From Apostichopus japonicus (taxonomy: Eukaryota; Echinodermata; Holothuroidea; Aspidochirotida; Stichopodidae): 64,000 nt of DNA. Each line of letters starts with the position of its first letter. The first letter of the stretch is position 1. Position numbers and translations under genes: made by a program. Where the stretch lies: positions 34,570,668 through 34,634,667 of the forward strand of contig NC_092569.1 in assembly GCF_037975245.1 (NCBI RefSeq), written 5' to 3'. The notes under the pieces are model-generated. The model made no database searches. It worked only from the letters and a program-made list of their open reading frames with translations, and was not told where the DNA came from. This document shows positions 31,463 to 61,739 of this stretch, one piece after another.

Positions 31463-31818
31463 CTACACAGGCCGTATTTTCATATCTGTGTATTGCAGGC
31501 TACATCCGTGACCGTTCAAACTAGAACTAGACCAGAACATGAACGATCCTCGAGTAGAGCCGTCGTAGTCTCTGTTGAGGTGAGAAAGAACGCATTTTAC
31601 GCAGTTGTCGCTGCCATCGGGAAACACTGCACAATAATAACTATACTAGCAGATTGATCGACAATCAGAAGCAGAATTCTTTCTTCTACAGTGATAAATT
31701 TCATAGAACCACCAGGCTCCTCGGTGTCCCTCCGCACAGTCGTAGCTGCTCCATCCATCGTTGTCTCGGTCTTTTGTACTGAACTGTTTATTGTTGCTAC
31801 CAGACAAACGATCATAAC
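31463..31818 (-). pseudogene. Third copy, last exon: FReD P subdomain with premature TAG
   Basis: Starts YDRLSGSNNKQFSTKDRDND after TTGCAG, with the calcium-loop motif KDRDNDG and GAWWF. An insert follows (YEIYHCRRKNSASDCRSIC, TAG, YSYYCAVFPDG), then a recognisable tail with STRGSFMFW and MKIRPV before a second TAG. The frame is otherwise open, so the stop is a single recent lesion. The insert aligns in position, but poorly in sequence, with the gene 2 insert. Confidence 0.8.
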
Positions 31819-33120
31819 CTGCAACAAACGAGAAAGAGTAAATAAACCGATATATTGATTATCCGTCACATGCAGATGGGGAAAACTACTTTAAACGAAT
31901 ACTAGATTTGAGTAACTAGAGTCGCTAATATCGCCCTTTATTTTATATTTATTTATCGTCATTTATTTACAATACTCTTCATTCATTCATTCATTTATTT
32001 GACTCTTATTCATAAGTTCACTACTGAGTAGTTTCCTACTCTGTAAAAACTCTTGTTATAAATTTAATGTGTGTGTCGGTGTTATATCTTATAATTTGTT
32101 GAATTATATTTGAATTATTTGTTGAATTATTGAATAATTGTTGAATTATTAATATATTAGAATAATTTAATTTGGATAACCATTTTTTTTATATTTCTCT
32201 ACGTATTCAACCCAGTGCTTACGTTTTTCTTTTACCACATAGGCTAACTTAGGCTCTTTTCGAACCTGGACAAGGAGGGTGGAGAGGGGGAGGGGCTGTG
32301 TGATGTAGCTTCATATATCATTCAAGTTAGGAAAACAAAGGTATCATTGTAAGATATAGTCCTGAGTAATCTAACATGTTATAATTACATACAAAGTAAT
32401 AATTGCATTTTGCAGAAAAGCCATCTCCCCATAAAACAAAAATCAAATAGACGGCATCATCTGCATGTCAATATTATGGTTGTGATATAATATCTGGCCG
32501 GCTCCAAGTTCCCTGTTCTACTGTAAACAGGGTACACAGGGTGTTATTGCCATCGATTGTTCAATTCCTTACCCTATATCTATAGCACTTTTTAATATTT
32601 GTATCTTTTAACTTGAGCTGATACGTTGGACTATAAACGTAGATTGAAATTTACACTATACACAAATCATGAAATAAATACGTTTAAATGAACAATAGAA
32701 CCGACATTGTATAAGGTGAATTTACTATTGATTTAGTAGCTAATATTTTAGGTTTCCACAAGGTAACCAAAATTCGATGTATTACATTTATGAAAATCTT
32801 GAATGATATTAATTATCGGCATTTTATTATTTAGTTCTTATCGACATGTACAATCTAGTCTCGTACGTATATCTTCTTCGAACAGACTGAATGATTGATT
32901 GATTCTATTTCTCGAAACTATATAGACGAATATTTAAAAATAAAACATTTCTGATTCCTCTGTTTCAATGTTCTATGAATGATAAACCCTAGATTATTTT
33001 ATATATAACATGATTATATTAACATAGCGCCTCAACGTTTGCACATATGAAAATCATCGAACATACATACCACTTGAAGTCTCACTATACAGTAACGAGA
33101 AGAGACATGTGACTACTCAC

Positions 33121-33382
33121 CTGTATTTCCACTGTGTGATCCAACTGATAGTCGATACTTGTCTGCCTCGTTATTAATGCGAAAAGTCGAATAGACGGCA
33201 TAAAACGATGATGAGCCAGAGTCCCGTAGATCAATACGTAGCTGGTACCTTTTCTGGTTGGTCAGAGAGTGAATAAATTTGTTACCTAGCCAGTGGTCGT
33301 GATTTTTATTACCAAAACCGTTCTTGTAGTCCGACCAACCACGATAAAAGTCAGCAGAGGAACTCGATCGTCGCTGGAAAAC
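33121..33382 (-). pseudogene. Third copy, FReD B-subdomain exon (intact)
   Basis: 262 nt, phase 0 in, 1 out. VFQRRSSSSADFYRGW, then GFGNKNHDHWLGNKFIH, LTNQKRYQLRIDLRD and a terminal SVGSHSGNT. Differs from gene 2 at scattered residues, with no frame damage. Confidence 0.82.
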
Positions 33383-33633
33383 CTATGAAATGAAGAAAAA
33401 AAGGTTAATACAACTATAGAATCTACCAATCCTTAAGAGCATGACATTCAAAGCCGAAAAATAGTTAATAAAGATATAAATATTGTGAAAGTGAGATAAT
33501 TCGCAAGAGTACTTTGTTACTTGATTTGCTTTCCTAAAATGGTCAAGTTCATCTCAACGGGACCTGCAGTGCATCATTTTGAGTAAAGTGAGGAAGTTAA
33601 GAATTTAAGTCCTTCATTGTTTGCATTACTCAC

Positions 33634-33939
33634 CGTCCATCCTCCTCCGTTACTTTCCATCTCACAGTAAACCTGAATGCCGCTTGACCAACAATCAGGG
33701 TAAATGGTGTAAACACCATCACTGCGTGTACCGGAAACATAAAGCTCGTAGCAATCTTTTGGGAGGCTTGTGCACGTCACTCCGTCCCCTTCGTAGCCAT
33801 CATTACAGTAACATTTACGGACACTGCTCCTCGTATCACAGGTTGCGTGACTACCACACTGGTAACTCTCATCTACACGCCGGTTGTTCCTACAAGTCGA
33901 TTTCCGTGTACATCGTGAATTGATGTAAAAGTGGCCCTC
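33634..33939 (-). pseudogene. Third copy, EGF plus FReD A-subdomain exon (intact)
   Basis: 306 nt, 102 residues, 0-0. EGF core with NDGYEGDGVTC, then directly SLPKDCYELYVSGTRSDGVY and NGGGWT. Two codons shorter than in gene 2 at the EGF-FReD junction. It has an extra Cys in YPDCW where gene 2 has Gly. Confidence 0.82.
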
Positions 33940-34028
33940 CTAATTTAAGATATTCAGCGAAAATAAAAACGACTAATAAATAAATTATTAATTTGCGGTT
34001 GTCACAGTGAAATGTACAGAATTTCAAC

Positions 34029-34403
34029 GGTAAGTGGCGATTGATAAATCCCCTCGAATGATATAGGTATGAGTATCAACCTTTATGAAAGTTTTATGAA
34101 GTATTTGAAGCCAATTCCGAAGTAGGAGGCGAAAGGATCCGCCATAAAAAAGTAGCTGCAAATATTGCATTCAACGGCTTACCGCGACTATACATTAGGC
34201 CTACAAATAGTTCTAACCGTAAGACTGAAAAAAAAGTATCTATGGAATTTTGTGTCAGGCTTATAAGTGGATGCACACTCGAAGGGAGTGGTCTCGTGAT
34301 TCCCGACTAAACGTAATACTTCCCTCGACTGACAGTTTTGACTGGACTGGAGACAAAAAAATGGGTCAATGGCCCCTCCCCAACCTCGATGCGCACGCCA
34401 CTG
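34029..34403. repeat. Recurrent intronic repeat with hAT-like end
   Basis: On the minus strand the right edge reads CAGTGGCGTGCGCATCGAGG and continues GGGGCCATTGACCC. Degenerate versions of the same block occur in the long introns between EGF exons of genes 1 and 2 and give the repeated open frames there. The opposite edge (AAGTGGCGATTG) is a weak inverted match. No target duplication found, so transposon origin is an inference. Confidence 0.4.
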
Positions 34404-34525
34404 AATTATCTGTAAATGTAATGATTTTATCGACAAGTATAAATACTAAAGGTTTCCTTCTAATTAAATGGACAATGATTAAGAACAAAGCATTATATAA
34501 CATTTCCTGAATGAACCGTACTGAC

Positions 34526-34708
34526 CCCTAATACACTTCCAATGTTAGCAACGAAGCAGTTGTGGATGCACGTCTCTCCGTCCCCTTGGTAGTTTGGATT
34601 GCAGTAACATTTACGGACACCGTTCCTCTCAGCACAGGTTGCGTGATCACTACACTGGTAACTCGCTTGTATAATCTGGTTGTTTCGGCAAGTTGATTTT
34701 CGTGTACA
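34526..34708 (-). pseudogene. Third copy, 5'-truncated EGF exon
   Basis: Matches EGF exons from CTRKSTC to NIGSVLG before GTCAGT, but the first eight codons and the acceptor are replaced at about 34709 by unrelated sequence in which the reading frame stays open. Confidence 0.75.
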
Positions 34709-35450
34709 CCGTTGTACCGCGAAATACACTGGTCCTCGACGAAGTTTCTCGCGATCCCAGAAACAGCAGTCACCTTCTTTCCGGCGATGCTCCAAAATAG
34801 AAGACGGACTTCCAGCCGCAATCGAGTGAAGCACAAGTCGAACTTCTCGCCGACTAAATATTACCAGAGTCAGTCCAAAATCAGCTTTATAGCCACCAAC
34901 TCCTGGCGTAACGAACTTCCTCAACGGAGACAGAAATTCTTCACCTTCTCCGAAATAAAGACTGGAAAACTGTACTTTCACAGCAAAGTCCTCTTCAAAC
35001 TTCTGAATGGAAGTGTAGAATCAATCTTGTTATCGATATCTCAATCTTTCAGAAACTACTGGCAGTTGAGCACTGACGATATATAGTAGAATGGTATAAT
35101 ATGTGTCGTCGCTTGTATTCGTTCAGAAACTGAGAAACTCTTCGATCTGGGCGGTTTTTATACGATTCGCCATGTCAAGAATCATCTAGATCTTTCTCGA
35201 TACACTTGACCCAGTTTCTCTATTCTTGGAAGTCCTTTGCATATCTCGCGAACGTTCCGGAGAATCCACGAAGATGCCGTGCACAGCTTACACGCGATTC
35301 CACGTAAACCGACGTTAACCCGAGACCAGCGTGTCATCATAAGGAATATACCAGAACAATCGTGTATTATAACATTCTGACGCGGTAACCCGACCTAATT
35401 TCTCAAATACTGATTTATCACGTAGGCAATTTTAAAGACTTTCTATATAA
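34709..35450 (-). other. Unassigned sequence joined to the truncated copy, with long open frame
   Basis: The minus-strand frame entering the truncated EGF exon stays open for about 105 codons upstream, back to a TGA near 35.02 kb. It includes SSLYFGEGEEFLSPLRKF and EGDCCFWDREKLRRG. A possible acceptor (CTTCCATTCAG) lies at its start. Composition is more GC-rich than the flanks. I cannot assign a family. It may be an exonised transposon fragment or a new 5' exon, and the open frame could be chance. Confidence 0.3.
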
Positions 35451-42659: not shown

Positions 42660-44220
42660 TTTGTTTAAATTTATCTATGACTGACATATCAATCCAGGGA
42701 CAAGCAAAAGTGAAGCTTTTAATGTCTCAAATTAAGAAATTAAGAAATCGGCTGGTTTCGATAATTTCTGCCCGAACATTATAAAATTGATAATACCTTA
42801 CATTGTAAAACCACTGACTTATATTTTCAACCTCTCATTTACCTCGGGTATTTTTCCTGATATTCTTAAAATTGCCAAAGTCATACCGATATTTAAAAAG
42901 GGTGACGTTCATTTATTTAGTAATTATCGTCCCATTTCTATACTACCTTGTATATCTAAAATCTTGGAAAGGTTGATTTTTAACCGTCTCAATGCTTTCT
43001 TTGATAAGTTTCATATTCTCAATGAAAACCAATTTGGTTTTCGTCCTGGCCACTCTACAGAACTTGCTTTGGTCAATGCAGTGGATAAAATTCATAGTGC
43101 TCTTGATTCGGGTGATAATTGTATTGGTGTTTTTTTAGACCTTTCCAAGCATTCGATACCATCGATCATGGAATTCTTCTGAGGAAATTATCACATTACG
43201 GTATTAGAGGTCTAGCTCTTTCTCTCATTTCAAGTTATTTGTTTAACAGGCAACGGTACGTTTCTTTTTCTGGAATCAATTCTGATAATCGTTCAGTTAA
43301 GTGCGGAGTTCCTCAAGGGTCTATATTAGGTCCACTTCTTTTTATAATTTATATAAATGATATTTGCAACGTCTCTACAAATTGCTCGATTGTCCTTTTT
43401 GCTGATGACACTAATATTTTTTTTCTCTGACAGCAATGTAGAAACTCTTAAAGTAACCATATGTAATGAATTAAATGCGTTTTATGATTGGTTTTCTGCT
43501 AACAAACTGTCTTTGAATATTGATAAAACAAATTATGTGGTATTTGGAAACTCCTCTAGAACATTAAATGCTGATTTATATATGCATGGTATTTGCCTTA
43601 AAAGAGTCGATAATATTAAATTTCTTGGTGTGTATATTGACTCTCAGCTCTCTTGGAAAGTCCATATCAATCATGTTTGTAAACAAGTTTCTAGAGGTGT
43701 AGGTATTTTATATAAGTTAAAATATACTTTTCCAAGGAAAATTCTGAGATCTATTTACTATAGTATTATATTTCCTCATCTATCGTACTGCTCTTCAGTT
43801 TGGTCTGGTACCTTAAATACTAACCTTAATAAGCTTGTCATTCTCCAAAAACGGGCTGTGAGGCACATGACGTCTTCAGCTCCACGTGATAATACCAGTC
43901 ATTTATTCTCCTCCTTAAACGTGCTCAAGTTCACTGATCTCATTTCTATAAATGTTCTGACGTTTACTTATCGTGCTATGAACAATCTGCTTCCAAGTTG
44001 TTTTGCTACCTTTTATACAATTGGTCACTCTATTCACAATTATAATACAAGACAAGCTGGTCATTTACGTGCTTCTTTTTTTCGTAATTCAAAGAGCATG
44101 CAAAGCCTCTGTTATCGATCTATTTCTTTGTGGAACAATCTTCCGATCAACTTGAAATCATATACTTCCGTGGCTTCATTCAGGCGACATCTGAAAAATT
44201 ACTATGAAAGCCTTTATTGA
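42660..44220 (+). pseudogene. Reverse transcriptase, frameshifted
   Basis: Motifs in order: KVIPIFKKGD and NYRPISILP, NQFGFRPGHSTE, FLDLSKAFDTIDH (split), [45 protein letters not shown], and a C-terminal SLWNNLP region ending ESLY. The catalytic Asp residues (FLDL and FADD) remain, but the frame is broken three times: near 42745, at 43149 (one base lost in AAGCATTC) and in the T run at about 43418-43426 (one base gained). It therefore cannot make a full enzyme. Confidence 0.9.
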
Positions 44221-44479: not shown

Positions 44480-44893
<414 letters not shown>

Positions 44894-45786: not shown

Positions 45787-46121
45787 CTACACAGGTCGTA
45801 TTTTCATTTCTGTGTATTGCAGGCTGCATCCGTAACCGTTCAAACTATAACTATACCAGAACATGTACGTTCCTCGAGTAGAGCCGTCGTAGTCTCCGTT
45901 GAGATTTGAATAAGTGCAATAGTCACAGCAGTTGCCATCAGGGAAATAATAGCAATAGTAATCACTAGTACGGCAATAACTATAACAATAATAATAATAA
46001 TAATCACCGTACCACCAGGCTCCTCTGTGTCTTTCCGCACAGTCGTAACTACTCGATCCATCGTTGTCCTGGTCTTTTGTACTGAATTGTTTATTGTTGT
46101 TATAAGACAAAGCATTATAAC
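45787..46121 (-). CDS. Gene 2 exon 12: FReD P subdomain with Tyr/Cys-rich insert
   Basis: After TTCTTGCAG it encodes YNALSYNNNKQFSTKDQDND, the calcium-binding loop, then YDCAERHRGAWWY. An insert of about 27 residues follows (GDYYYYYCYSYC, RTSDYYCYYFPDGNC) before the usual C..SNLNG block, STRGTYMFW and the end MKIRPV. In ordinary FReDs GAWWY is followed within about three residues by the Cys of the SNLNG block, so the insert lies at the ligand-pocket loop. Its TAT-rich codons resemble a short repeat expansion. Stop TAG at 45787-45789. Confidence 0.88.
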
Positions 46122-49100
46122 CTGCAAGAAACGAGAAAGAGTACATAAACCGGTCAATTTATATACTTTGAACGAATCCAACATCGGGTGCAAAATAGAG
46201 GGCAGTGCGTTTTTGTCCTACCAATATGAAAACGTCAGTTCCGCGATTTTGTTGTTTTCTGTTTTCAATATTTAGGATACATAAGGTGGTAGTTTGTCTT
46301 TGCAAGGACGTTTTTATATTTCTTTTGTTTTGTTCCGTTTGGAATACAGTGCCACAACAGGAGTAAAATACGGATGGGGAAACTACTTTAACCAAATACT
46401 ACGTTTGGGTTACTAGAGTCGCTAATATCGCTCTTTATTTTATCGGCATTTATTATTACTATTCATTCTTTTATTTATTTGATTGTTATTTTAAAGTTCA
46501 CAAATGAGCTTCCTAACTCTGTCAAACTCTAGTTATAAATTTCTTGTTTGTGTCGGTGTTTAATGTTGTAATTTGTTGAATAATAATATGTTTAATTTAA
46601 TTTGCATAACCAACTTTTCATTTATCCCCTTATTCAACAAAGTGCTTATTTTTCTTGTACCACATAGGCTAACTTAGGCTCTCTTCGAACTTGGATAAGG
46701 CGGTTGTGGGGGGAGGGGGGAGTAGGGGGCTGTGTGATGTAGCTTCCTATATTATTCAATTTAGGAAAACAAGGGTATCATTGAAAGATCTAGTCCTGAG
46801 TAATCTTACATGTTATTATTACATACAAAGTAATAACAGCATTTTGCTGTAAAAGCCATCTCCAAATAAAACAAAAATCAAGTAGACGGCATAATTATTT
46901 CTATCAATATTATGGTTGTAATATACTATCTGCCCGGCTCCAAGTTCCCTGTTCTACTGCATACAGGGTATACAGAGTGTTATTGTCATCGATTGTTCAA
47001 TTCTTTACCATATATCTATAGCACGTTGTAATCGTTGTATCTTTCAACCTGAGCTCATACGTTGGACTATAGACGTAGATTGAAATTTACACTATACACA
47101 AATCATAAAATCAATACGTTTAAAAGAAGAATAGAACCGACATTGTATAAAGAGAATTTACTATTAATGTAGTAGCTAATATTTTAGGTTTCGACAAAGT
47201 AACCAAAATTCGATGTATTACATTTATGAAAATATTGAATGATATTGATTAATGGCATTTATTAAGTTCTATCAACATGTGCCATCTAGTCTCGTACGTA
47301 TAACTTCTTCGAACAGAATGATTGATTGATTAAAATTTATCGAATCTATACAGACGAATATTTCAAATATTTGAATGTTCTATGCATGATAAACCCTAGA
47401 TGACTTTACACATAACATGATTAAATTTAAATAGCGAATCAAAGTTTTCACATATGAGAATCATCGAATATACTTACCACTTAAAGTCACATTATACAGT
47501 AACGAGAAGGCACACGTGGCATGCTTCCAGGTACTACTAATATGATATTAACCCCTTTGTAAGTTTGAAGTAATGCGAGTTTGGTAGACAACAGCGAGCG
47601 ACAAGGCAACAGACATTTACGATAATTTTCAGAATACTCGTTTAGGTTGGGATGATAGTGATGTTGAGATTTACTCTCTCTGTGTCAGAAATACATGGAC
47701 ACTGGCTACTATTATAATATCTACTGCCATAGTTTTATATATTGTTAGGTGCTTGTTACGTGCAAACACGGCCAAGAGACTTGTGTTGCCAATGAAAAGC
47801 GGATCTTATCGTCTGCTTCTTATGTCTGTACACATTGTATACAGTCCTGAAACCTACGTGCGTTCCAGTTGTACTTCAAACGCTTGAAAGAAAATAGCAA
47901 TGTTTGGAATTTAAAATTGCTGTGAACCTTGAACTTATATATCATTTAGCCAGGAATGCGGTAGCTATGAGATCAGGACATTAGTTGTTAGTTGCTTCTC
48001 CTAATTCACGTAATCGGTCCAGATTTATGTTTGCGTCAATGATTAGAACCATCAATTACTCACCTGTATTTCCACTGTGTGATCCAACTGATAGTCGATA
48101 CTTGTCTGCTTGGTTATTAATCCTAAAAGTCGAATAGACGGCGTATTTTGATGATGAGCCGGAGTCCCTTAGATCAATACGAAGCTGGTAAGTTTTCTGG
48201 TTGGTCAGAGAGTAGATATATTTATTACCTAGCCAGTGGTCATGATTTTTATTACCGAAACCGTCCTTATAGTCCCTCCAACCACGATAAAAGTCAACGG
48301 AGGCACTCGATCGTCGCTGGAAAACCTATGAAATAAAAAAAAAAGTGAATCCAGCTATATAATCTAGTTATCCGTAAGAGCATAACATTCAACGCCGTTA
48401 GATAGCTAACAAAGATATGGATACTGTGAAAGTGAGATAATTTGCAATAGTGTTTTGTTTCTTGATTTTGGTTCTTCCTTAAATGGTCAAGTGCATCTCA
48501 AAGAGATCTGCAGTGCATCATTTTGAGGAATGTAAAGTATAATGTGAGAAAGTTCAGAATTTAAGTCCTTAATTGTTTGCGAAGCTCACCGTCCATCCTC
48601 CTCCGTTACTTTCCATCTCACAGTAAACCTGAATACCGCGTGGCCAACCATCAGGGTAAATAGTGTAAACACCATCACTTCGTGTACCGGAAACATAAAG
48701 CTCGTGGCAATCTTTTGGGACCACCTCGCGGGTGCACGTAACTCCGTCCCCTTCGTAGTTTGTATTGCAGTAACATTTACGGACACCACTCCTCGTAGCA
48801 CAGGTTGCGTGACTACTACACTGGTAACTTTCATCTACAAGCCGGCTGTTCCTACAAGTTGATTTTTGTGTACATCTTGAATTGATGTAAAAGTGGCCCT
48901 CCTGTTTTAAGATATTCAGCAAAAAGAAAAACAGCAACTAATAAATGAATTATGCATTTGCGGTTGTCATATTGAAATGTACTGGATTTCAACGATGGGT
49001 GGCCACGTAATTCCCGACTAAACGTAATACATCCCTCGACTGAAAGTTTTTACAGGATTGGCGACAAAAAACTGGGTCTATAGCCCCTACACAACCACGA

Positions 49101-52100
49101 TGCGCACGCTACTCGGTTATCTGTAAATGCAATGTAATTATCGACAAGTATAAATAGTAAAGGTTTGCTTCTAATTATATGGACAATGATTTAAAAAAAA
49201 AACATTACAAAATGACCTAAAAGAACCGTACTGACCCCTAACACACTTCCTTTGTCGGCAACGAAGCAGTTGTGGGTGCACGTCACTCCGTCCCCTTGGT
49301 AGTTTGGATTGCAGTAACATTTACGGACACCACTCCTCTCAGCGCAGGTTGCGTGACTACTACACTGGTAACTCTCATCCACGAGCCGACTGTTCCTACA
49401 AGTTGATTTTTGTGTACATCTTGAATTGATGTAAAAGTGGCCCTCCTAGTTTAAGATATTCAGCGAAAAGAAAAACATCAACTTATAACCGAATTATACA
49501 TTTGCGATTGTCATAGTGAAATGTACAGAATTTCAACGATGGGTGGCCACGTGATTCATGACTAAACGTAATAAACATACAATAAATCCAACCGCAAGAC
49601 TGTGAAAAAAGTACCCATGAAATTTTATATCAGGCTTATAAGTGCATGCACACCCGTAGGAGTGGTCTCGTGATTCCCGAATCAACGTAATATATCCCTC
49701 GACTGACAGTTTTGAGAGGACTGTCGACAAAAACAAATGGGTCAATGGCCCTGCCCAACCACGATGCGAACGCCACTCAGATATCTGTACTGTAATGTGA
49801 TTATCGACAAGTATAATAAGTAAAGGTTTCCTTCTAATTATATGTACAAGATTAAGAACAAAGCATTATCAAAATGACCTGAAGGACCGTACTGACCCCT
49901 AATACACTTCCTATGTCAGCAACAAAGCAGTTGTGGCGGCACGTAACTCCGTCCCCTTGGTAGTTTTGATTACAGTAGCATTTACGGACACCGCTCCTCT
50001 CAGTACAGGTTGCGTGAACACTACACTGGTAACTCGCCTCTATAATATGGTTGTTTTGGCAAGTTGATCTTCGTGTACATCCTGAATTGATGTAAAAATC
50101 GCCAACCTGATTTCAGATATTCAGCGAAAAGAAACAACAAATAAACAAATCATGAATTTGAAATGTACAGGATTTCAACGGTAGGTCGCCAAAGATTTGT
50201 TCCCCTCGAATGATCTAGGTACGGGTATGAACCTTTATGAAAGTTTTATGAGTTCTTTGAAGCCAACTCCTATATAGGGGGCGTAGGGATCCGCCTTAAC
50301 AAAAAGTAGCTGCAGATATTGCATTCAACGGCTTATCGCAACTATACATTAGGCATACAAATAAATCTAACCGCAAGACTGTGATAAAAAAGTATCCATA
50401 CATTTTTGTGTCAGGCTTATCAGTGCATGCACACCCGTAGGAGTGGCCTCGTGATTCCCGACTAAACGTAATATATCCCTCGACTGACAGTTTTGACTGG
50501 ACTGGCGACAAAAACAAATGGGTCAATGGCCCCTGCCCAACCACGATGCGCGCGTCACTCGGATATCTGTAAATGTAAAATGAATATTGACAAGTATAAA
50601 GAGTAAAGGTTTGCTTCTAATTATATGGACAATTATTAAGAACGAAGCATTATAAAAAAGGCATGAAAGAACCGTACTGACCCCTAACACACTTCCTATG
50701 TCAGCAACGAAGCAGTTGTGGCGACACGTCACTCCGTCCCCTTGGTAGTTTTGATTACAGTAGCATTTACGGACACCGTTCCTCTCAGCACAGGTTGCGT
50801 GAACACTACACTGGTAACTCGCCTCTATAATCTGGTTATTTTGGCAAGTTGATCTTCGTGTACATCCTGAATTGATGTAAAAATCGCCGACCTGATTTAA
50901 GATATTCATCAAGTAAGAAACAACAAATAAACAAATTATAAATTTGCGGTTGTCACAGTGAAATGTACAGGATTTCAACGGTGGGTAGCCAAAGATTTGT
51001 TCCCCTCGAATGATCTAGGTACGGGTATGAACCTTTATGAAAGTTTTATGAGTTCTTTGAAGCCAACTCCTATATAGGGGGCGTAGGGATCCGCCTTAAC
51101 AAAAAGTAGCTGCAGATATTGCATTCAACGGCTTATCGCAACTATACATTAGGCATACAAATAAATCTAACCGCAAGACTGTGATAAAAAAGTATCCATA
51201 CATTTTTGTGTCAGGCTTATTAGTGCATGCACACCCGTAGGAGTGGCCTCGTGATTCCCGACTAAACGTAATATATCCCTCGACTGACAGTTTTGACTGG
51301 ACTGGCGACAAAAACAAATGGGTCAATGGCCCCTGCCCAACCACGATGCGCGCGTCACTCGGATATCTGTAAATGTAAAATGAATATTGACAAGTATAAA
51401 GAGTAAAATAGTAAAGGTTTGCTTCTAATTATATGGACAATGATTAAAAAAGGCATTATAAAATGACCTGAGAGAACCGTACTGACCCCTAATACACTTC
51501 CTTTGTCAGCAACAAAGCAGTTATGGGTGCACGTCACTCCGTCCCCTTGGTAGTTTGGATTGCAGTAACATTTACGGACACTGTTCCTCTCAGCACAGGT
51601 TGCGTGAACACTACACTGGTAACTCGCCTCTATAATCTGGTTGTTTTGACAAGTTGATCTTCGTGTACATCCTGAATTGATGTAAAAATCGCCAACCTGA
51701 TTTAATATATTCAGCAAAAAGAAACATCAGATTAGCAAAATGATGAATTTGCGGTTGTCACAGTGAAATGTACAGGATTCTAACGGTGGGTGGCCAATGA
51801 TTTATTCCCCTGAATGATCTAGGTACGGGTATGGATCTTTATGAAAGTTTTGTGAAATCTTTGAAGCCAACTCCGATGAGGAGGCCGCGGGGTCCGCCCT
51901 GAAAAGGTAGCTGCAAATATTGCATTAAAACGGCCTATTGCGACTTTAAATTAGGCCTACAATTAGATTCTAGCCGCAAAATTATCGTTAGTTTTATCCA
52001 TGCATTTTAGTGTAAGGTTTATAAGGGAATGGACATATGTGGGTATAGCCTTTTGCTTCCTGAGTATATGTAAGTAAAATATTTGATTCTTATTATATGG

Positions 52101-55100
52101 AAAAAATCATTAAAAGCAAAACACTTAAAATGTAAGAACCGTACTGACCATTAATACACCTCCTTTGTCAGCAACGAAGCAGTTACATTGGTTCAGAGGG
52201 ATGCATTGTTCTTGCTGTCTCAGATAATTACCGACGCAAACACATTGCTCTGTTTCTCTTCGAGAGGTAGCCGAGATGCAAGTATTAGGGTCGTCACAAG
52301 TCCTCTCACATGTCTCATTGCTAAATATCTCATTAGCTGGACACCATTCAGGGATTGTTTCTAGAGAACAGGAAATAAAAAAATGAAAATAATAGTAACC
52401 TGATACAGTCACGACATATATTACATGTGGCATAGAATAGTTTGTCGTCATTACTTAAATACGTGGTTGTCAGAAGGTTAAAGGAAAGCAACATACACTC
52501 AGAAGCTGCTCGAATAAATGTAGAACATTTTAAATAGGTAGTGGCCGTTCCGTAGTCACATTAATGTTACTATTTATTCTGATAACGAGATAAAGCACCA
52601 TCATTTGTTGTGCAATTAGTCTGAAACCAGGTAGTCATGGCTTGTTTCTGTTTCAGAGTTCTCTAGGTGTAAGTATACTGCTTTCTGACAACAATGGTAA
52701 TTAATAACAACATCAAAATTCTTTCGTTGGTTGTTCTGATCAAACTGGGAGACGAACCTGGTTTAATTGTAAACGTTATGTTGTACTAACGTTAGGAACG
52801 GTTCTTTGTTCAGAGTCATGGTCGGTGTTGAGTACGAAGCAGTCTTGTAGTGAGTGCGTAATCACACTTTAGCTAATGAAGGCATTTTGGAATTCTAGTA
52901 TGGATACTAATGCAAGATTAAGTGTTTGAACTCGCACTAGAAGCTTGTACTTGCACTCATATCATATCATATTCTAATTGCTACGATATGTATTGTAGCA
53001 CCGTCGTACTCGCTAATATACTATAAGTATACTCGTACTATATATATTGTAGCAGTTTCTTCAAAACATATTTGACATGCCAAATTTACTTCCAAAAGAT
53101 CCTTTCGTTTTCAGAATAAACCTTTCATTTTCTGCGCGTTTACGTTTGACATTTAATAAATGATCACGATTTTTATGATTTTTTTGGCTTTATATTTAAT
53201 AATATAAAAGACACTTACCATGTGGTATATCGAATGTTCCTAAACTAGATATAGAATAATCCCCCCATTCATCTGAGATACGAAACTCGTCGTATGTTAC
53301 ATAGTAAGTTTCTCCAGCAACGCTCTCAAAGTCCATTCGCAGTTGGTATCGCTTTTGATTTGTTAAGACGGCAATTTTCTCATTTCCGATCCAAAACTCA
53401 CTCCCTAGAAAGCCAAAGCCATTTCTGAAGTCTTTCCAACTTCTACTAAAATTTACAGAATCCGATCTTCGTCGCTGTAATACCTTCAAAGAATATCAAA
53501 GAAGTTAACTAGGACGTGATTGAATTATTATTATTTGTTCCCTACTGCAATGCGATTTGTTGCTAACAACCAGTACACAGAAATACTTATATATTTCTAA
53601 CTTCAGTTTGTAGTTTGGGCTAGATGTTTACAGTTTCCTTGGAAGAAGAACTGCACTGTACCTAAGTACAATCTGTACTTAAATTCCACAATATTAAAAA
53701 TAATTGATTCAAACTTTCGTTTCGATAAAAAAGCGAGATTCTATTTGAAATAACGACTTTGCATTACATCGCTTGATATTGCTGCAATCAAAATCTGAAG
53801 TAAATTTGTACAAAACTATTTAAACTTGAAAAGAAAACATCAAGTAATCAGCCATACCGTCCATCCATCAGTATCAAGATCATTGTTACAGTAAGCCTCA
53901 AACGGTTCCGGATAGCCATCTGGTTTAATAAGGTACACTCCAGATGTATTGTGGGTAGAGGAACATGCATTCGATACTTCTTTGCAATCTTTCGGATACG
54001 CAGGTTGTTGAAAAACAAAGTATGAAGAACCTGGATGGAAAGTAAAACAAGGTTAACATTTTATTGTGACTGAAAAATAATTTCAGCTAACGAAAATATC
54101 GCCTAAGATGCTTTATCTCAATTGCCTCTCTCCACCCAGGGGTTAATGGGTACATGTCAGGTAACTTGTCATTGGGCGCAGATTATAACTGCAGCCGTCC
54201 GGAGGGATTTTCTCTGGGACAGGTTATTATTGAACAGGGGTAATATAACGTCTGTAAAGCTCTTTGAAACCTATCGCTGTTTAAAAGCGCTACATGAATC
54301 GAATATTATTATTAATATTTTTACTATAAGACTTTTTTGCTAATTGTAAGAGAACTGGTTTCGTTACTAAGCGAGTTAAGGCAATGCATCAGTTTAAATA
54401 TCAACTATTACTCAACTATCATATAGTCGAATATATCACGACTAAAGTTAAATGAAGTAATCGTTATTGAATTCTCAGATGTAACTGATTTGAAGCATTA
54501 TATGTGATTAGTTTTCAGCCTGCAATGGATATTCAAAGACCAAGTAACTTGATTTCTTTTTAACCAAGCTTCCGTAGTTATCAATCATATCCAAGTGAGA
54601 TCAAAAGACTCACGAAAACAGGAAAATCCCTTTTGTTCAAAGTACCTGAGAAAATATCGTAGGATATAATAAGATCGAAAGTATACTACTCAGTGGAAAT
54701 CAACCTCGGAATAGATATTCGGAAATAGTAACACGATTGAAAAACAAAACGTCAAGAGCGACGATTAAAAAGCTAACATTTCCAGACATTCAAGTTGTCA
54801 AACTGAGGTGTTAACGTTATAATACATAAGTGATGTAACTTACAGAGGTTAACTCTTATTATAAGATAAATCATTATTATAAATATTACACCTACCTGAA
54901 GATCTTCCCTCGGCGCTGACGATTATCTGTGTAATAAAATATATTGACTGAATACATTACAAGACATACAGAGTATTGCAGTCAACATAAAGCAGGATCA
55001 GATTAAATCTTATGTTAATAAAACCAGTTTGAGGGAAAGAAAGAACCTTTCGCAAACTGGTCTAAAATATGTTAGTTTAAGAGTAAAGTCGATTTATACT

Positions 55101-58100
55101 TTGATAAAGTCTCCGGATAACCACTTACAATGATGTTTTTCTTTTGTCTATATTCCATATCTGATTTACAGGTCAATGATCACTTACAGGGTAGAACTTT
55201 CTTCCAGGAAACATTAGATTACTGGCATTTTCCGGTTTTACAGCTACTCTGGCACATGATACGTACGTGAAGGACAAAGGCAATTGCCGGCTGCTTCCTT
55301 AAACAGCTTTGTTGCTTAATGCAGACAGATGTTCTTTGTTCAAGTCATATTTTGACATTAGAACATTTCAAACATGGGTTGTAACACATTTGTGTTTAAC
55401 AGTCCTTAATAACACGTAGGGATCATTAACATCGTCCCAGCTATTCTTGTTGGACGAAGATTAACGTGTCTTGATACTTACCGTGCACAATGAAACTCTG
55501 AGTTTTTAATGGTGTCATTTTACTTGTAAGGTAAGTTCATAGCCATAGATTTGTATATCTTGCTAACTAAACAATTGTAGCAGCGCTACAGAAGCTCAGC
55601 TAAGCTTCTATTTGAAATCATTATGTCTAGTGTTGTGCTGATATCGCCAATATCGGACCTGGCCGATATCCGATTTTCAATCTCAAAATCGGCCCCATAA
55701 CGTTACCGATATTTTTCAACAGCCAGTATGAAAGTCATATTTTAATACATAAAGAATCAGAATTATCATCGGCTATCGTAAAATATTATATTGCACAGCA
55801 CACAAACAGTAACCACTTGATAATTCCTTTGTGCCTATTCTATAACATTAGCCCTAACCTCTTTTTAACTGAATGATCATAGTCCCCAACAAGATGATAT
55901 GCAAGAAACTATGTGCTAGCATTTTGTTCTTGGAACAACCCAAGTCCATTCTTCCTGTTACTTCTGTTGCACGGTTCGTTACTCTGTTTGACCTACTACG
56001 TTCAAAACTTAAGTTGCAAGTCATATACAAATTGTTGTCACATAGAGCCACGACATTCTTAGCAAAGAATGTTAAAAGATGACAAGTTATGAATAAAACT
56101 GACTTCATATAGAAAAGACATTAGCGTATCCTGGCTAAGAACTTTTACTACTCTTAGTGATTAACAGAACCAAAACCACGATATTTTCTTTATTTTTTTA
56201 ACTTCCGTAAAAAATATATCCTACCATTTGCCGGTTATACTGACAACTAAGCCTAGCCAAAATTAGCAAGTGTATCGTCCTTGAATTATTCGACAAATTG
56301 TTTCAAACAAAATTCTCAAAATACAATCTTTTCAACAGTCATTTATGTTTTAACAAAATGCATCCATGATACTCATTGCAGCTTTGTAAAAGATACACAA
56401 TTTTTGGAATGATTCAGTAGGGGGTGTCCACGTGTTATAAATTGTATTCTCAGCTGAGGACTAGAAGCACTGTGCAAGTTAGTGTGATAAGCTACTACTG
56501 TACTTATAAACATATAGTCATATAGACTTGTGAAATTTACTTTAAAGCGCTACAAAGACTGGTATGTACGTAACGTTAAGTGGCTTGACTTGTCTGCTTA
56601 CAGATCGTTATATCATTAGATCGGTAAATTTTTTCAGAACTTGCGTCATGCTTGTTTGACCAGCTAGAACAGATTAATAAATCATCGCAAGAAACAAGAA
56701 GTAGCTTTGTTGTGGAGGAAAAAAGAGCAGAAATTGGAATTGGCTCCAACAATATAGGTCATTCTCACATGGATTACACACACAAACTGTGTGTGTGGTC
56801 AAATTGGAAATCTGTAGTCCTTTTAAAGAGAATAACGTCGAACTAGATTGGACTTGATCAAGTCTCCTACGGGTGGAATTTTGTCTTACAATGACGGGAA
56901 ATTAAGATGGAAGACATTTTGCTACTCACATCAAAACGCATGCTTTTCATGAATACTAAAAGATTGAAAACCAAATAACATGATCATTGCATATGATTGT
57001 GGCCCACATTTCATTATAACTGAAATCTTTACAGAAGCCCCTGATTTGAGTCCTCACATGACGACAAAATTATTCTTCGTGTACAATTTTGGTTCACCGC
57101 TATTCAAACTTATATCTACAATGCAAAATGGTAGAAGTACGTTATGGCACAGCAAATGTACGACGACCTTAAAAACGCTACCTAAGAAGAATAGACTTTT
57201 AGCAATAACATTATATGATCATGAAGATGATAAAAATTGCAAGAGATAAAGAATGTCAACAGAAAGGACAATATAAAAAGAGGAAGTTCAGCAAGAATGA
57301 AGGAATTTAATCTCTTTTCTTTCAGACCAAGTCATTCATGACCAAAATTCCATAGTGTGATATTGTTCTGCCATAAGGGGAAAGAATTGAACCAATACTC
57401 GGCTTTAAATTTGTAAAAGTATGTAGGATCGGAAGCAGCTTAAACACATTTTTTTCTTGTTTTTTAATGCCAAATAATTATGATATAAAGATATTAGAAC
57501 ATCCGAGCATATGGCAGTTCAAAGTTTATTTAATGACGATTTTGTCTTTCAAGACAAAAACATATTGCATATTGCAAAATGGTATCACACTAATGTCATG
57601 AAAAAATTAAAATCTACATTTTATACTTTGCCGTTGTCAACAGATTGAAGAGGTCAAGGCGATTTGTTTGGTATATAGCCAAAGTTTTGTTTTTGTCGTC
57701 GAGAATGTTATTCAGGAAGCACAGGCGGTGTGCGACGTTATTGTTGTTGTAAAACATTGTGTTTCATGTCACCGTATGCTGAGTATCACATGCCGTTTGT
57801 TCCCTTGAATATAATGGAGGAATTTAACTCGATATCCTTCAACATATAAAGCGAATTATTACCATACATTGAGTAAGGATAGATGTTATGATAATACTTT
57901 CTAGTTTTTGCAAGGTGTTAGAAAAGAGACCTTTAAATACAGCGCAATGTATTTTATGTTGTTTAATTTGTAAAAGTCTATCATCGATGTTATTTTTAAG
58001 TACAGGGAGCGTTTCGTATGTATACTAAATTATAATACATGTTACTGTAAACGATATACGAAACGTTACGTTTTGTACTTCACCAAATAGCCACATCACG

Positions 58101-61100
58101 AAGGGAGGGTGTGATTCGGGTAGGAGGGAGTGATTGAGAGCAGCGAAGAGGGAGGGTATGGGTGGGGATCGGTGACTACTCCCATCGCATACATGTTATA
58201 GATGGAGTACATTGTCAATGGTCCTATTATAAGAAGTCGGGTCATTAAGTATGAAAGACGACATGCATGAGAATATCTTCGCGTTGGTTTTACATTTTAT
58301 TTCTCTATTTAAATTGAGACTATTAAACGTTACAAGAACGTTTACATGATCGCCACGACTTTAAGGAACACCTTGTGTGGAAATCAAAGTAAACTACGGT
58401 ATTTGTAATTAGAGAATTAACAGATAACATAAAGGATCTGAATGAATTTCTGTCTCTCTCGTAGTAGTTTATTTTAAAGTTATACGTTAACAACTAATAC
58501 ACTATTTCGCACAGTTGTAGTTAATATATGCATTACATATTTAGTTCTTTACACGGTGAACTAGCCTTAAATATTCTAATATGTGACAGAAAACATCACT
58601 TTGGATTGTCATTAGAATGTACGTGAACTGCATTGTGTCAAAAGGATTTTTTCCAATAAAAATGAAATGTAATTTATCTTTTGGTGAGAATTTTCTCACC
58701 CAAATTATGTTGTATTACTTTTTCTCTGCTTTGTTTTACTGTTATAGATTATGTCTTAGAATAAAGAAAAAAGACAAACATAAAACAACAAAGCTATAAA
58801 TTGAAAAGTATAATTATTTAAAAGACAATCAACTAGAATAAGAATCAGTTTATTTTTAAAAGTTATAGAAGATTTCTCTGCGTCTGTATTATGTTATTAC
58901 GCTAGTAATATCGGCCTTTAGTGTTATTCGTATGATCGGGTGAAATTTTAGATTTGCCTGTCGCACTTTGTCCAGAATGCAGCCTAAATTTGGAGCTATA
59001 ATGTCAAGAAAACTGATTAAATGGAAGAAAAAATACAATTCCTTCGTGCAATTGTCTTTATTCAATAAGGCATTTATGCAGTTTTTTTTTTTGTCTTATT
59101 TTTTTGTCTGGATTGATTACACAAAGACTAACGAAACATCTAACTACGATTTTATTTTGAGTATGATTTTATAACGTCTATTCCATTGGAAAGAGACTTT
59201 CAATAGTTTTAATCTTCTAATTTATTCAAATTACAGATCGTCTAATAACAGTATCAATTTTAAACAATGTTCTTACAATAATATTAGTTGTAATTATTAT
59301 CACTAAATCGTTAACGTCGTTGCACATTTTATTATAATAGCGCGACACGTTAATTAGGAATACACACTTAATCAAGTCGCACACATTCGACAAATAATGT
59401 GATACTTTATAGGTGTTTCATTTTAACTCACAAGAATCAAAACTAAAGTGAAAACAGCTTAATGTTCATAAAAGTACGTTAAAAGAAAAGGTATGTTACT
59501 TTTTCTTAAATTAATTTATTGAATGCCATATGAGCATATTAAGGGATGTGCACATTTTCTGTTACTGTTTTAGTTAGTTAACGATATCTAAATATATCTC
59601 AATTAAGTTTCCCATTCACAATCAAAATCTTCTTTTTTCCTTTTAATTTCCCTCTTATGTTGGCAATGTGATACGACATTAGGTATGAGTCGGTATCAAG
59701 GAGTTACCTTTGGTCAAGTTATATTACTTCTCGACATAATCATTAACGAAATCAGCCTCATTTAACTGTCACTTTAAAAAAAAATCGACAGAGTTTTTCT
59801 TTACAAACTTGATCATTTCAAATAAAATAAAGGAACATGTCTTACATTTGTTCTGCTCTAATATCCGTCATATTTAGAATAACGGATTATTGGGATTATA
59901 TTTCTTTGGAATCTCTTACAATATATAGCGTAACTGAAGGAAATGAGAAACACAAAAAGAGAGAAAAATTAGAAGCTAGCCACTTAAACCGCCGGAGACA
60001 TTTGCATGATCGCGTATCATACCATGCTTTAATGTAAGCAATTTGAAACCAGAACGTACTGCCTGAAAAATAACATTTGTTATTTTTGTGGCTTTGTGGA
60101 AGTATTTTATCTTTGATAATTCGTTCTGCGATAAATCCGTGTAACCTAAGTTTTCTATTTTCAGCATTAATTTCAGTTTCCATAAATTAGTTTTAAATTA
60201 GATTGACGTGTACACCAGTTGGATTTATTGTTATTGAACTTTGTTTCCTTGAATAATATGATATTTTCAAAATATATTTCAAAGTACCTTTTTTTTTGTT
60301 TTGTTGAAGACTGTTTTTTCAAACTTTGGCACACATATAACGATATCTATTAAAGAGATCTCTATGAGCATGTAAAGGAAGTAAATATTTAGGTGCTCTT
60401 TAGAAATTTATATCTGAAACTTTCGTGTTTGGATGATAGTTCAAACAATATAATCAAACGTACAACTGAGCATTTCTTCTAATTTGATTAAACCTGAAAA
60501 ACAGTTTCAAGTTATAGATTTCTAATTTAAAGGATGTACCTTGTCATTATAGTTTTGTTCACTGTAGTTACCCAATTATGCATCTTTGTGATTGGATTAT
60601 CACATAGAAATTGTTTTGTTTTAGATTAGTTAACGCATATGTTGCTTTAATGTATTCATCAGGATAACTTGGACAAAGACGAGCAATAAAATGTCTGTTC
60701 GGAAATCATATCAAAATAACAGAGCTGACAAAGGAAGTTGCCTTTACGCAGATGAAAACCAAGTTATTCGTATGTAGTTTATATCGAAAAAATAAAAGCA
60801 AGGCATTATAATAAATATAAAAAAAAACATTACATTTAACTATACAAAGCTTACCGAATAACGCTCTGTTTCAAAAGGGATCTCATGATTGGATTTTTAA
60901 CAAGAAGAACTGTTTTTTTTTAAAGTTATTGTATAGTGTTTTAGTTATCGCTGAAATAAATGAATTTCTTGTTTTTAGTTATCGTACTCGTAGCCAATAT
61001 TATGGAGTATACATTTATGAGCTAGAATGATTTACATTTGAATTTAAGCTCACTAATTTTTAATATGAATTCAGTGTTGTAACGTGTTGGTATGGATCTG

Positions 61101-61739
61101 TGAAAGGTAGGGTTGGCTATTGGAGGGAAACCTTGTGAACAGATGTGCTGTAAAGGATATGTTGGGAACGATATACTCATAAGTTTGAAAAAAGGATTAA
61201 TTTTTCCTGGCCATATGAAACTTGATTGACTTTGAAAAATTGGTGTGTAACGAAAACACGTTTGAGATGTATGAATGAGCTTTTCTTCTAAGTATTTTAC
61301 ATGTGAGCAAATTTTAAAGAATACTGTATATAAGCAAAGAAGAACCGATTAGAGCTAATCTATTTATTTTATTCCAATATATGTGGTTAAATTAAAAGAC
61401 GTTTCGTTATTCTGATCGAAACACTGCTGTCTTTTCGCGAAGTTAAAAATTCGGAGTATTTCTAATTGAAGGCATTCAAACTGTAATTTAACAGGATTTT
61501 TTATCGATATTTTCCTATTATTTCGAAGACGCTAACTCTTCACTTTTCACATAATTTAATATTAACAGAGTTAGCTCAACAACACATTGATGCGACTTAT
61601 GTTATTTTTTTCGAAACAGAAAATATTTCAATGGAGTAAAATATAAAATATATTAAACAATAGAAAGACTTACCATTTCTGTTCCAAACGAGTTCCAAAT
61701 CGTCAAAACAGTGAAACAAACTTTGAAACAATTCTCCAT
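45787..61739 (-). CDS. Gene 2: complete secreted FReD(partial)-TIL-EGF(5)-FReD protein, 831 aa
   Basis: Twelve coding exons: 61739-61674, 54926-54896, 54030-53858, 53483-53219, 52360-52149, 51696-51487, 50891-50682, 50106-49897, 49445-49236, 48901-48590, 48325-48064 and 46121-45787. The lengths sum to 2496 nt (831 residues plus stop) and every junction keeps phase. Domain order: signal peptide, FReD lacking its P subdomain, TIL, five EGF, complete FReD with the calcium-loop motif and a Tyr/Cys-rich insert. Family knowledge suggests a secreted, oligomeric carbohydrate- or microbe-binding protein. The nearest named families are fibrinogen-like protein A and other FREPs, but this exact architecture is not one I recognise. 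Confidence 0.88.
47588..47887 (+). other. Open stretch with membrane-like segment inside a gene 2-specific intron insertion
   Basis: The last intron of gene 2 holds about 540 bp (47.51-48.05 kb) absent from the truncated copy. On the plus strand 99 codons are open, from a TAG to a TGA, including WTLATIIISTAIVLYIVRC, a plausible membrane helix. No start codon precedes the helix. Probably a fragment of an inserted element; not assigned to a family. Confidence 0.25.
48064..48325 (-). CDS. Gene 2 exon 11: FReD B subdomain
   Basis: 262 nt, phase 0 in and 1 out. VFQRRSSASVDFYRGWRDY, then GFGNKNHDHWLGNKYIY, LTNQKTYQLRIDLRD and SVGSHSGNT before GTGAGT. All standard FReD middle motifs are present. 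It is 90 percent or more like the truncated-copy exon by eye, and much more distant from the N-terminal FReD exon 4. Confidence 0.9.
48590..48901 (-). CDS. Gene 2 exon 10: fifth EGF fused to FReD A subdomain
   Basis: 312 nt, 104 residues, 0-0. Residues 1-56 are an EGF of class B (EGHFYINSRC, NYEGDGVTC). Residues 57-104 are TREVVPKDCHELYVSGTRSD, then GVYTIYPDGWPRGIQVYC and ESNGGGWT. EGF and FReD share a single exon with no intron between them, unlike the rest of the array. Confidence 0.9.
49236..49445 (-). CDS. Gene 2 EGF exon 4 (class B)
   Basis: 210 nt, 0-0. EGHFYINSRC start, SSHATCAERSG middle and CFVADKGSVLG end. It combines features of the B1 and B2 classes of gene 1, perhaps nearer the ancestral B exon. 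Confidence 0.87.
49897..50106 (-). CDS. Gene 2 EGF exon 3 (A/B hybrid)
   Basis: 210 nt, 0-0. Class A start (VGDFYINSGC, NNHIIEASYQC) joined to TERSGVRKCYC and TCRHNC of class B1. The hybrid therefore predates the separation of genes 1 and 2, or has been spread by gene conversion. Confidence 0.85.
50180..51400. repeat. About 800-bp tandem duplication of EGF-intron sequence in gene 2
   Basis: The intron block containing CTCGAATGATCTAGGTACGG, the GGATCCGCCTT word and the recurrent intronic repeat is repeated 800 bp apart (about 50.20-50.62 kb and 51.00-51.42 kb) with very few differences. It is the unit scar of EGF exon duplication in this paralogue. Confidence 0.8.
50682..50891 (-). CDS. Gene 2 EGF exon 2 (class A)
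   Basis: 210 nt, 0-0. VGDFYINSGC to CFVADIGSVLG with TCRHNC, matching gene 1 EGF exons 3 and 5. Confidence 0.87.
51487..51696 (-). CDS. Gene 2 EGF exon 1 (class A)
   Basis: 210 nt, 0-0. Has the RNSVRKCYCNP marker also seen in gene 1 EGF exon 1, confirming positional orthology of the first EGF after TIL. Ends DKGSVLG. Confidence 0.87.
52149..52360 (-). CDS. Gene 2 exon 5: TIL module
   Basis: 212 nt, phase 1 in, 0 out. ETIPEWCPANEIFSNETC, then ERTCDDPNTC, EQCVCVGNYL, QCIPLNQCNC and CFVADKGGVLM. All Cys are conserved with gene 1. The substitutions (L to P, H to D, TK to RE, E to N, HQ to QQ) are mostly amino-acid changing, hinting at relaxed or positive selection on the surface. Confidence 0.85.
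53219..53483 (-). CDS. Gene 2 exon 4: N-terminal FReD B subdomain
   Basis: 265 nt, phase 0 in, 1 out. Nearly the same as gene 1 exon 4. Differences include SEFWIG for SDFWIG, DFESVAG for DFENVAG, and a changed C-terminal tip (FDIPH for FEISD). No P subdomain follows. Confidence 0.9.
53858..54030 (-). CDS. Gene 2 exon 3: N-terminal FReD A subdomain
   Basis: 173 nt, phase 1 in, 0 out. SSYFVFQQPAYPKDCKEV, IKPDGYPEPFEAYC, and DTDGWT where the consensus, gene 1 and the C-terminal FReD have GGWT. The donor is GTATGG, as in gene 1. Confidence 0.87.
54896..54926 (-). CDS. Gene 2 exon 2: 31-nt linker exon
   Basis: Encodes IIVSAEGRSS plus one base of Gly. Acceptor TTACACAG, donor GTAGGT. The length and phase match gene 1 exactly. 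Confidence 0.75.
61674..61739 (-). CDS. Gene 2 exon 1: signal peptide
   Basis: 22 codons, MENCFKVCFTVLTIW and onward, ending ATG before GTAAGT. Start chosen as the only ATG in a good position below a conserved TATA-like word and because it is shared with gene 1. Confidence 0.8.

Follow-up and report, generated by a model that had tools for sequence, protein, structure and literature searches.

The stretch of the Apostichopus japonicus genome analysed here, hereafter called the window, comprises 64,000 nucleotides (C9:34570668-34634667) and probably contains two genes and one remnant that belong to a large tandem family, the products of which are predicted from sequence to be secreted, cysteine-rich, fibrinogen-related lectins. 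Gene 2 (window positions 61739-45787), gene 1 (from 20331 downwards) and the remnant (34735-31466) are all on the minus strand. The fibrinogen-related domain (FReD) occurs at both ends of the predicted gene 2 protein, without its P subdomain near the N-terminus (FReD1) and complete at the C-terminus (FReD2), and the two are separated by a TIL-like module and an array of TILa+EGF units. A tandem family of secreted two-FReD lectins with a variable recognition loop would best explain the observations as a whole, and we give this reading a probability of about 0.6. Modules were located in the window by tblastn with one query per module, and the genome searched was the same assembly (671.6 Mb in 35 contigs).

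Joining the exons of gene 2 by script gave 12 exons and 2496 nt, corresponding to 831 amino acids and a stop codon, with GT...AG at 11 of 11 introns and a single reading frame throughout, which reproduces exactly the uninterrupted model proposed in a preliminary description of this DNA. Gene 2 is thus real as a sequence object. Exon 1 (61674-61739) contains the start codon and a putative signal peptide (MENCFKVCFTVLTIWNSFGTEM) and ends at the donor gtaagt; it is also found in the paralogous locus L043, with an identical donor and a 15-nt in-frame insertion, and likely encodes a signal peptide. Intron 1 is long, about 6.7 kb, and is followed by a 31-nt exon (exon 2, 54896-54926) that converts phase 0 to phase 1 and is required because the signal exon ends in phase 0 and the next exon starts in phase 1. 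The 31-nt exon is bordered by AG at the acceptor side and GT at the donor side in both genes 1 and 2, and has the same length, by alignment, in the paralogous loci L045 and L043. Exons 3 (F1a, 53858-54030) and 4 (F1b, 53219-53483), assigned by homology, Pfam and the exact join, encode the two halves of the truncated FReD1, and the phase-1 end of F1b meets the phase-1 start of exon 5 (52149-52360), which encodes the TIL-like module and was assigned by Pfam and by its matches in the genome. Exons 6 (phase 0-0, 51487-51696), 7 (50682-50891), 8 (49897-50106) and 9 (49236-49445) are four 210-nt exons encoding one TILa+EGF_3 unit each, and exon 10 (48590-48901) encodes a fifth unit fused to the start of FReD2 (F2a), all five being assigned by homology, Pfam and the join. 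The middle of FReD2 is encoded by exon 11 (F2b, 48064-48325), which was assigned by homology and the join and ends in phase 1, and exon 12 (F2c, 45787-46121) encodes the P subdomain with its calcium motif, a Tyr/Cys-rich loop of 30 residues and the stop codon.

The Pfam scan, the check suggested in the preliminary description, was run on the gene 2 protein joined without the 31-nt exon, and placed Fibrinogen_C, TILa and EGF_3 above their cut-offs and TIL below. Fibrinogen_C (PF00147) reached 294.1 bits against a curated cut-off of 22, and 121.3 bits with FReD1 alone. Only FReD2 contains the complete A, B and P subdomains; FReD1 covers profile positions 2-123 of 221 in gene 2 and 2-144 in locus L041, and its P subdomain is absent. 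The order described earlier, with a P-less FReD first and a complete FReD last, is supported. An overlooked P exon after F1b was considered and rejected, as tblastn with the P part or with F2c gave P-type matches only after F2b; a second P exon was not found in the fetched locus stretches. TILa (PF12714, 93.1 bits, cut-off 27) and EGF_3 (PF12947, 104.7 bits, cut-off 28.5) each matched five stretches of gene 2, and in L042 EGF_3 scored 31.8, above the cut-off, and TILa 26.0, just under it. What had been described as an EGF array does contain EGF_3, but each 210-nt exon is a composite of TILa and EGF_3 rather than EGF alone. TIL (PF01826) scored 18.5 bits over profile positions 1-55 of 55, below the gathering cut-off of 24.5, and this match appeared only when the TIL exon and the first unit were scanned alone; in the L041 and L042 proteins no TIL match was obtained at E≤1. 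The module placed directly after FReD1 in the preliminary description is thus a real exon, present family-wide, but is better called TIL-like. The gene 2 protein had no Pfam match to a collagen-like region, as in ficolins, to an Ig domain, as in snail FREPs, to FN3, as in tenascins, with which it shares EGF and a C-terminal FReD, or to VWD or C8, as in mucins and zonadhesin, despite its TIL-like and TILa modules. Among solved structures, the best match of FReD2 is FIBCD1 (4m7f, E 9.1e-53) and the closest match of FReD1 is angiopoietin-1 (4jyo, E 4.2e-27).

The TIL exon (the TIL-like exon 5) was searched for in the whole genome and the best 150 of 490 candidates were scored, so that the counts are lower bounds. 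All 150 match, all of them on C9 between 4.2 and 35.8 Mb (two overlap at 27.88 Mb), and because every scored candidate matches and lies on one chromosome, chance is excluded as the origin of the gene 2 architecture. Internal stops were counted by eye in 3 of the 150. Forty stretches of 3.2-10 kb around TIL exons were read, corresponding to 38 distinct loci (L039 repeats L010, and L046 repeats L022), and the truncated-FReD exon F1b lies just upstream of the TIL exon in all 38, including the two genes of the window. The full set of F1a, F1b, TIL, unit(s), F2a, F2b and F2c is present and, in the aligned parts, free of stops in L041, L042, L048, L049 and L050; L046 has the full set with a stop in F2c, and L035 has a stop in one TILa+EGF stretch. 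Exon order is retained as far as L042, the exons of which are 45-68 % identical to those of gene 2, and the number of TILa+EGF units ranges from 1 (L041, L048) to at least 14 (gene 1). Since the gene model is known from genomic sequence alone and the intron after exon 1 is long, two neighbouring genes, a short FReD1 gene and a TIL-EGF-FReD gene, could in principle have been wrongly joined. However, F1b and the TIL exon are about 0.4-0.9 kb apart, against a median TIL-to-TIL spacing of 30.5 kb, their junction is phase 1 to phase 1, exon phases agree in L041 and L042, the lengths of F1b (265 nt) and F2b (262 nt) fit the splice sites in gene 2 and in both of these loci, and FReD1 on its own would have neither a P exon nor a stop. 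Separate mRNAs do not explain why exon order and phases are kept in the paralogs, and a wrong join is considered highly improbable.

In the corresponding search with F2c the best 150 of 875 candidates were scored, 146 of them places on C9. A same-strand F2c occurs downstream before the next TIL exon for 89 of the 150 TIL exons, compared with 1 of 150 in a strand-swapped control, and of the 98 F2c exons within 40 kb of a TIL exon 89 are paired. Some loci are nearly identical: L019/L020, L026/L027 (678 kb apart) and L031/L032 (807 kb apart) agree at 99.9 % over 3.2 kb, and such pairs may have arisen by recent segmental duplication or be duplicates made by the assembly, which leaves the number of genes uncertain. 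That the family as such was inflated by uncollapsed haplotypes or false duplications is scarcely credible, as the two genes of the window differ by 6.8 % in non-exon sequence and the loops described below are almost all distinct, with a mean identity of 38 %. Four TIL loci at C9 34.65-34.72 Mb recur at 35.33-35.40 Mb, about 678 kb away; three of these recurrent pairs were compared over 3.2 kb, two being 99.9 % and one 99.2 % identical.

Alignment to FIBCD1 places additional residues in the gene 2 FReD2 precisely after GAWWY and before the Cys of C-x-x-SNLNG. In FIBCD1 this cysteine, Cys414, is preceded by a cis bond and bonded to Cys401, and the acetyl pocket consists of Tyr405, His415, Tyr431, Ala432 and Trp443 (PMC3908420; this and other papers are cited here from excerpts). 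The loop was compared in 66 last exons, namely 60 of the 150 scored F2c matches together with gene 2, L041, L042, L048, L049 and L050. The 60 were picked by hand down the ranking, all stop-free and with most near-duplicates omitted, and the F2c exons of L046, which has a stop, and of the remnant were excluded; 55 of these hand-picked exons have a paired TIL exon, the others being L075, L079, L100, L107 and L109. All 66 carry a loop of 22-43 residues at the site of the ficolin-type acetyl pocket, and 65 of the 66 loop sequences are distinct. Mean pairwise identity is 0.38 in the loop versus 0.72 and 0.71 in the framework before and after it, and loop identity is below that of both framework parts in 2115 of 2145 pairs. 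The calcium-site motif is retained in 64 of the 66. At the position of the pocket His the exons have Ala (43), Thr (11), Gly (10), Asn (1) or Ser (1), never His, at that of Tyr405 they have Phe (46), Tyr (19) or Leu (1), and the SYADG segment is replaced, mostly by THMFW- or TNIFW-like letters; the FIBCD1-type S1 pocket (Tyr405, His415, Tyr431, Ala432) is not retained as a set. Five of eight other FReD loci (L001-L008) were readable at this site, and these (L001, L002, L003, L004 and L006) have 2-3 residues in place of the loop. L109, which is the final exon of a gene with one FReD (L113), likewise has a long loop, so that this feature extends beyond the TIL-type genes. TAT accounts for 466 of 587 Tyr codons in the loop versus 199 of 449 in the framework, which suggests triplet slippage.

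The composition of the loop, 27 % Tyr and 12.8 % Cys, would also suit a secreted gel or adhesive in which such loops are cross-linking sites, that is, a matrix, mucus or adhesive protein. Proteins of the mucin and zonadhesin type characteristically contain TIL-TILa-EGF modules, and TILa and EGF_3 arrays are present here. Temporary adhesion in a flatworm involves a protein that contains VWD, C8, TIL and EGF modules (PMC6410801). VWD and C8, however, are the modules for which the gene 2 protein has no Pfam match, the loop is restricted to the ligand site of a FReD with a conserved framework and calcium motif, and a cross-linker would not need 65 distinct sequences among 66 copies, and we consider a structural role of this kind unlikely.

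The A/B parts of both FReDs from five genes were compared with FastTree. The FReD1s split off with a support of 0.992 and the FReD2s with 0.961, and because the same pairs, gene 2 with L041 and L042 with L050, recur within both groups, the ancestor of the five genes already had both FReDs. The L113 gene (17.99 Mb, surrounding L109) contains F1a-like (52 %) and F1b-like (51 %) exons, immediately after which comes a P exon containing a long loop, and no TIL, EGF or F2a/F2b matches were found between its F1b and P exons at E up to 1. Its F1b ends in phase 1 and its P exon starts in phase 1, and in gene 2 the block from TIL to F2b is likewise entered and left in phase 1. When the tree was rooted on L001, L113 joined the FReD1s with a support of 0.858, and L113 is 50-53 % identical to FReD1s and 45-49 % to FReD2s. 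These data suggest that a cassette extending from TIL to F2b, with phase 1 at both edges, may have been inserted into the phase-1 intron that separates F1b from the P exon in a gene with one FReD, such as L113, an origin drawn from one relative (L113) and one outgroup (L001); FReD1 would then lack the P subdomain because the proposed insertion separated F1b from its P exon. The matching intron phases of L113 thus suggest an exon-shuffling route to a two-FReD protein. In the region surrounding L113, C9 15.7-18.6 Mb, 43 of the best 150 last-exon matches (counted by eye) and none of the best 150 TIL matches were located, and this cluster may represent a sister group of single-FReD genes, L113 being the one that was read. 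Further clustered FReD matches occur on C7, C8 and C20 (L002, L003, L005-L007).

Divergence within the family was also compared along the genes. F1b differs on average by 2.4 % versus 5.3 and 4.7 % in the flanking introns (120 pairs, 16 loci). Between genes 1 and 2, the two FReD1 exons F1a and F1b together show 10 differences, 9 being nonsynonymous, too few for a judgement. Diversifying selection on the TIL exon across the family was considered and dropped, since the exon differs by 5.1 % and its upstream intron by 4.7 % (16 loci).

Several observations weigh against a family of functional lectins with a selected, variable recognition loop. Internal stops were counted by eye in 10 of the 150 F2c matches, and 61 of the 150 TIL exons have no F2c among the 146 scored places on C9, including all those at 30.4-31.5 Mb; in L051, from that group, the F2c match is limited to the first 37 residues. 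As only the best 150 of 875 candidates were scored, the F2c of most unpaired TIL exons was perhaps missed rather than absent. The hydrophobic peak of the gene 2 signal peptide is moderate (9-residue mean 2.19), so the earlier signal-peptide call is likely rather than proven. The tree on which the origin of the architecture depends has a single, long-branched outgroup as its root (L001). Loss of the pocket His is not special to the family, because among the five other FReDs His directly follows the Cys only in L002 and L003. The ratio of nonsynonymous to synonymous differences per site (pN/pS) between gene 2 and the remnant is about 0.28 for F2b and 0.36 for the final TILa+EGF unit, the F2b value showing ordinary purifying selection. 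In the loop, pN/pS was calculated from 96 equal-shape pairs with a framework pS of up to 0.3; a value above 1 was looked for in these pairs and was not found, the ratio being 0.69. Loop pN (0.211) is 2.9-fold that of the framework (0.073) and slightly higher than framework pS (0.190), but pS is raised too (0.307 in the loop). With pS raised and pN/pS below 1, hypermutable or relaxed sequence accounts for the variation as well as diversifying selection does.

A loop pN/pS below 1 would agree with a further explanation, in which the genes encode regeneration or wound-closure factors like the expanded FREPs of sea cucumbers and the loop variation is a neutral by-product of tandem duplication. The FREPs of A. 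japonicus are tandem-duplicated, clustered and up-regulated after evisceration (PMC5638244), and a ficolin family has expanded in a brittle star (PMC11310086). The loop, however, is far more variable than the remaining parts of its exon, and the reading frame of the 66 exons is maintained despite differing loop lengths, stop-bearing rows having been excluded at selection. We judge this explanation improbable, and immune and wound roles would in any case be compatible rather than exclusive.

For the family of two-FReD lectins, the division of labour could be as follows. FReD2 would be the recognition head, binding its target by means of the variable loop together with the calcium-stabilised P subdomain, and the loop, in replacing the acetyl pocket, would give each paralog its own specificity. 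The (TILa+EGF)n array would form a disulfide-rich stalk of variable length that sets the reach. P-less FReD1 may serve in assembly or anchoring rather than binding: its match takes in interface loop L1 of FIBCD1, with L3 at the edge of the match (subunit interface loops described in PMC3908420), and it fits an assembly role because the A/B part with the FIBCD1 interface is kept and the ligand part is missing. The repertoire would grow by tandem duplication, by changes in the copy number of the 210-nt exon and probably by triplet slippage in the TAT-rich loop. By analogy with FREPs, a role in immune recognition is favoured. The loop of FReD2 would resemble the CDR3 of antibodies in position and composition. 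Joining F1b of gene 2 directly to the P exon leaves the frame intact and open. With phase 1 both at the end of F1b and at the start of the P exon, skipping of the cassette would yield a short form that has one FReD and carries the identical loop; the phase match seen in L113 likewise predicts a splice switch between long and short forms. As a tentative suggestion, which we hold to be possible rather than probable, the some ninety paired loci, a few of them near-identical and each with a fixed scaffold and one hypervariable, Tyr/Ser/Cys-rich loop at the ligand site, could make up a germline-encoded recognition repertoire in which each gene perhaps provides a long two-headed and a short ficolin-like receptor of one specificity. 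As ligand complexes of the FReD fold have been solved, the loop position, the calcium site and the pocket can be read directly on this scaffold, and specificity would be testable loop by loop.

Gene 1 has the same architecture as far as it extends within the window, as had been noted earlier, with a signal exon (20266-20331), a 31-nt exon (12738-12768, located by alignment), F1a (11710-11882), F1b (11071-11335), the TIL-like exon (10003-10214) and 14 TILa+EGF_3 exons of 210 nt (430-9551), all on the minus strand. The gene continues beyond the start of the window, and among the matches listed the nearest same-strand last-FReD exon downstream is outside it, at C9:34561535-34561891. The TIL-like exon of gene 1 is unusually diverged: it differs from that of gene 2 by 6.1 %, compared with 1.8 % in nearby introns, and gene 1 is the outlier among the pairs inspected. 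It has 13-18 differing sites relative to four paralogs (gene 2, L010, L014 and L015), and the TIL exon of gene 2 has just 1-6 relative to five other loci; a gene-conversion patch or local selection would fit this divergence.

The third copy (31466-34735, minus strand) is a 5'-truncated remnant consisting of a partial unit, a unit with F2a, F2b, and F2c with an in-frame stop. Family homology ends inside the TILa+EGF exon (34708-34735 and beyond), where the adjoining sequence has a higher G+C content, and the 5' part looks as if it had been replaced through an insertion or deletion. Between gene 2 and the remnant, reverse transcriptase frames resembling those of a long interspersed nuclear element, a label given from the appearance of the translation, are found at 42736-44220 on the plus strand, broken between frames. 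At 44482-44893, directly downstream of gene 2, 412 bp consist of a perfect (ATC)137 array (100 % match). Elsewhere in the assembly, COX1 is on contig C35. When this COX1 is translated with NCBI table 9, the code of echinoderms and flatworms, AAA codons coincide with Asn positions of solved COX1 chains, many ATA codons coincide with Ile positions, and TGA is read as Trp with the frame intact, as expected of an echinoderm. Additional broken COX1 pieces on C29 (14745-31219) may be copies in the nuclear genome or belong to a mitochondrial contig that is scrambled.

Immune defence in invertebrates is generally taken to rest on large, diversified families of innate receptors, among which few examples are known with variability confined to one loop on a constant scaffold. 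The SpTransformer genes of sea urchins, which to our knowledge are not a FReD family, offer an analogy only. Their immune clusters are flanked by GA and GAT repeats (PMC8634487), as gene 2 is adjoined by its ATC array. Neither a FReD-TIL-EGF-FReD architecture nor such a loop repertoire was found in the open literature searched, which leaves out most subscription papers and was represented partly by excerpts. Tandem FREP expansions in echinoderms (PMC5638244) and proteins with several fibrinogen (FBG) domains in mosquitoes (PMC1242226) are already known. The FREP clusters of A. japonicus resemble the present family in being a large tandem expansion, mainly on one linkage group, and the excerpts of that paper describe neither a two-FReD/TIL/EGF architecture nor loop variation (PMC5638244). 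The snail FREPs of Biomphalaria are also a diversified family with a fibrinogen domain (PMC7588048), but have one or two immunoglobulin superfamily domains, to which gene 2 has no Pfam match. The generalisation in the preliminary description that known FReD proteins carry one C-terminal FReD was too strong, since mosquito FREPs with two or three FBG domains have been described, the majority of these domains being incomplete (PMC1242226). They share with the gene 2 family the presence of several such domains in one protein, some incomplete, and differ in that two FBG domains are connected by a hinge of about 20 or 150 amino acids and a lipase domain occurs in one protein; EGF is nowhere mentioned in that paper (PMC1242226). 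There is also a close likeness to FIBCD1, ficolins and tachylectin-5A, which have the same FReD by sequence, and of which the calcium motif and the positions of Cys401 and Cys414 are kept in FReD2. In contrast to these lectins, FReD2 has 22-43 residues before the pocket Cys and the pocket His replaced in all 66 exons, and the gene 2 protein, without a collagen match in Pfam, carries an additional P-less FReD in front.

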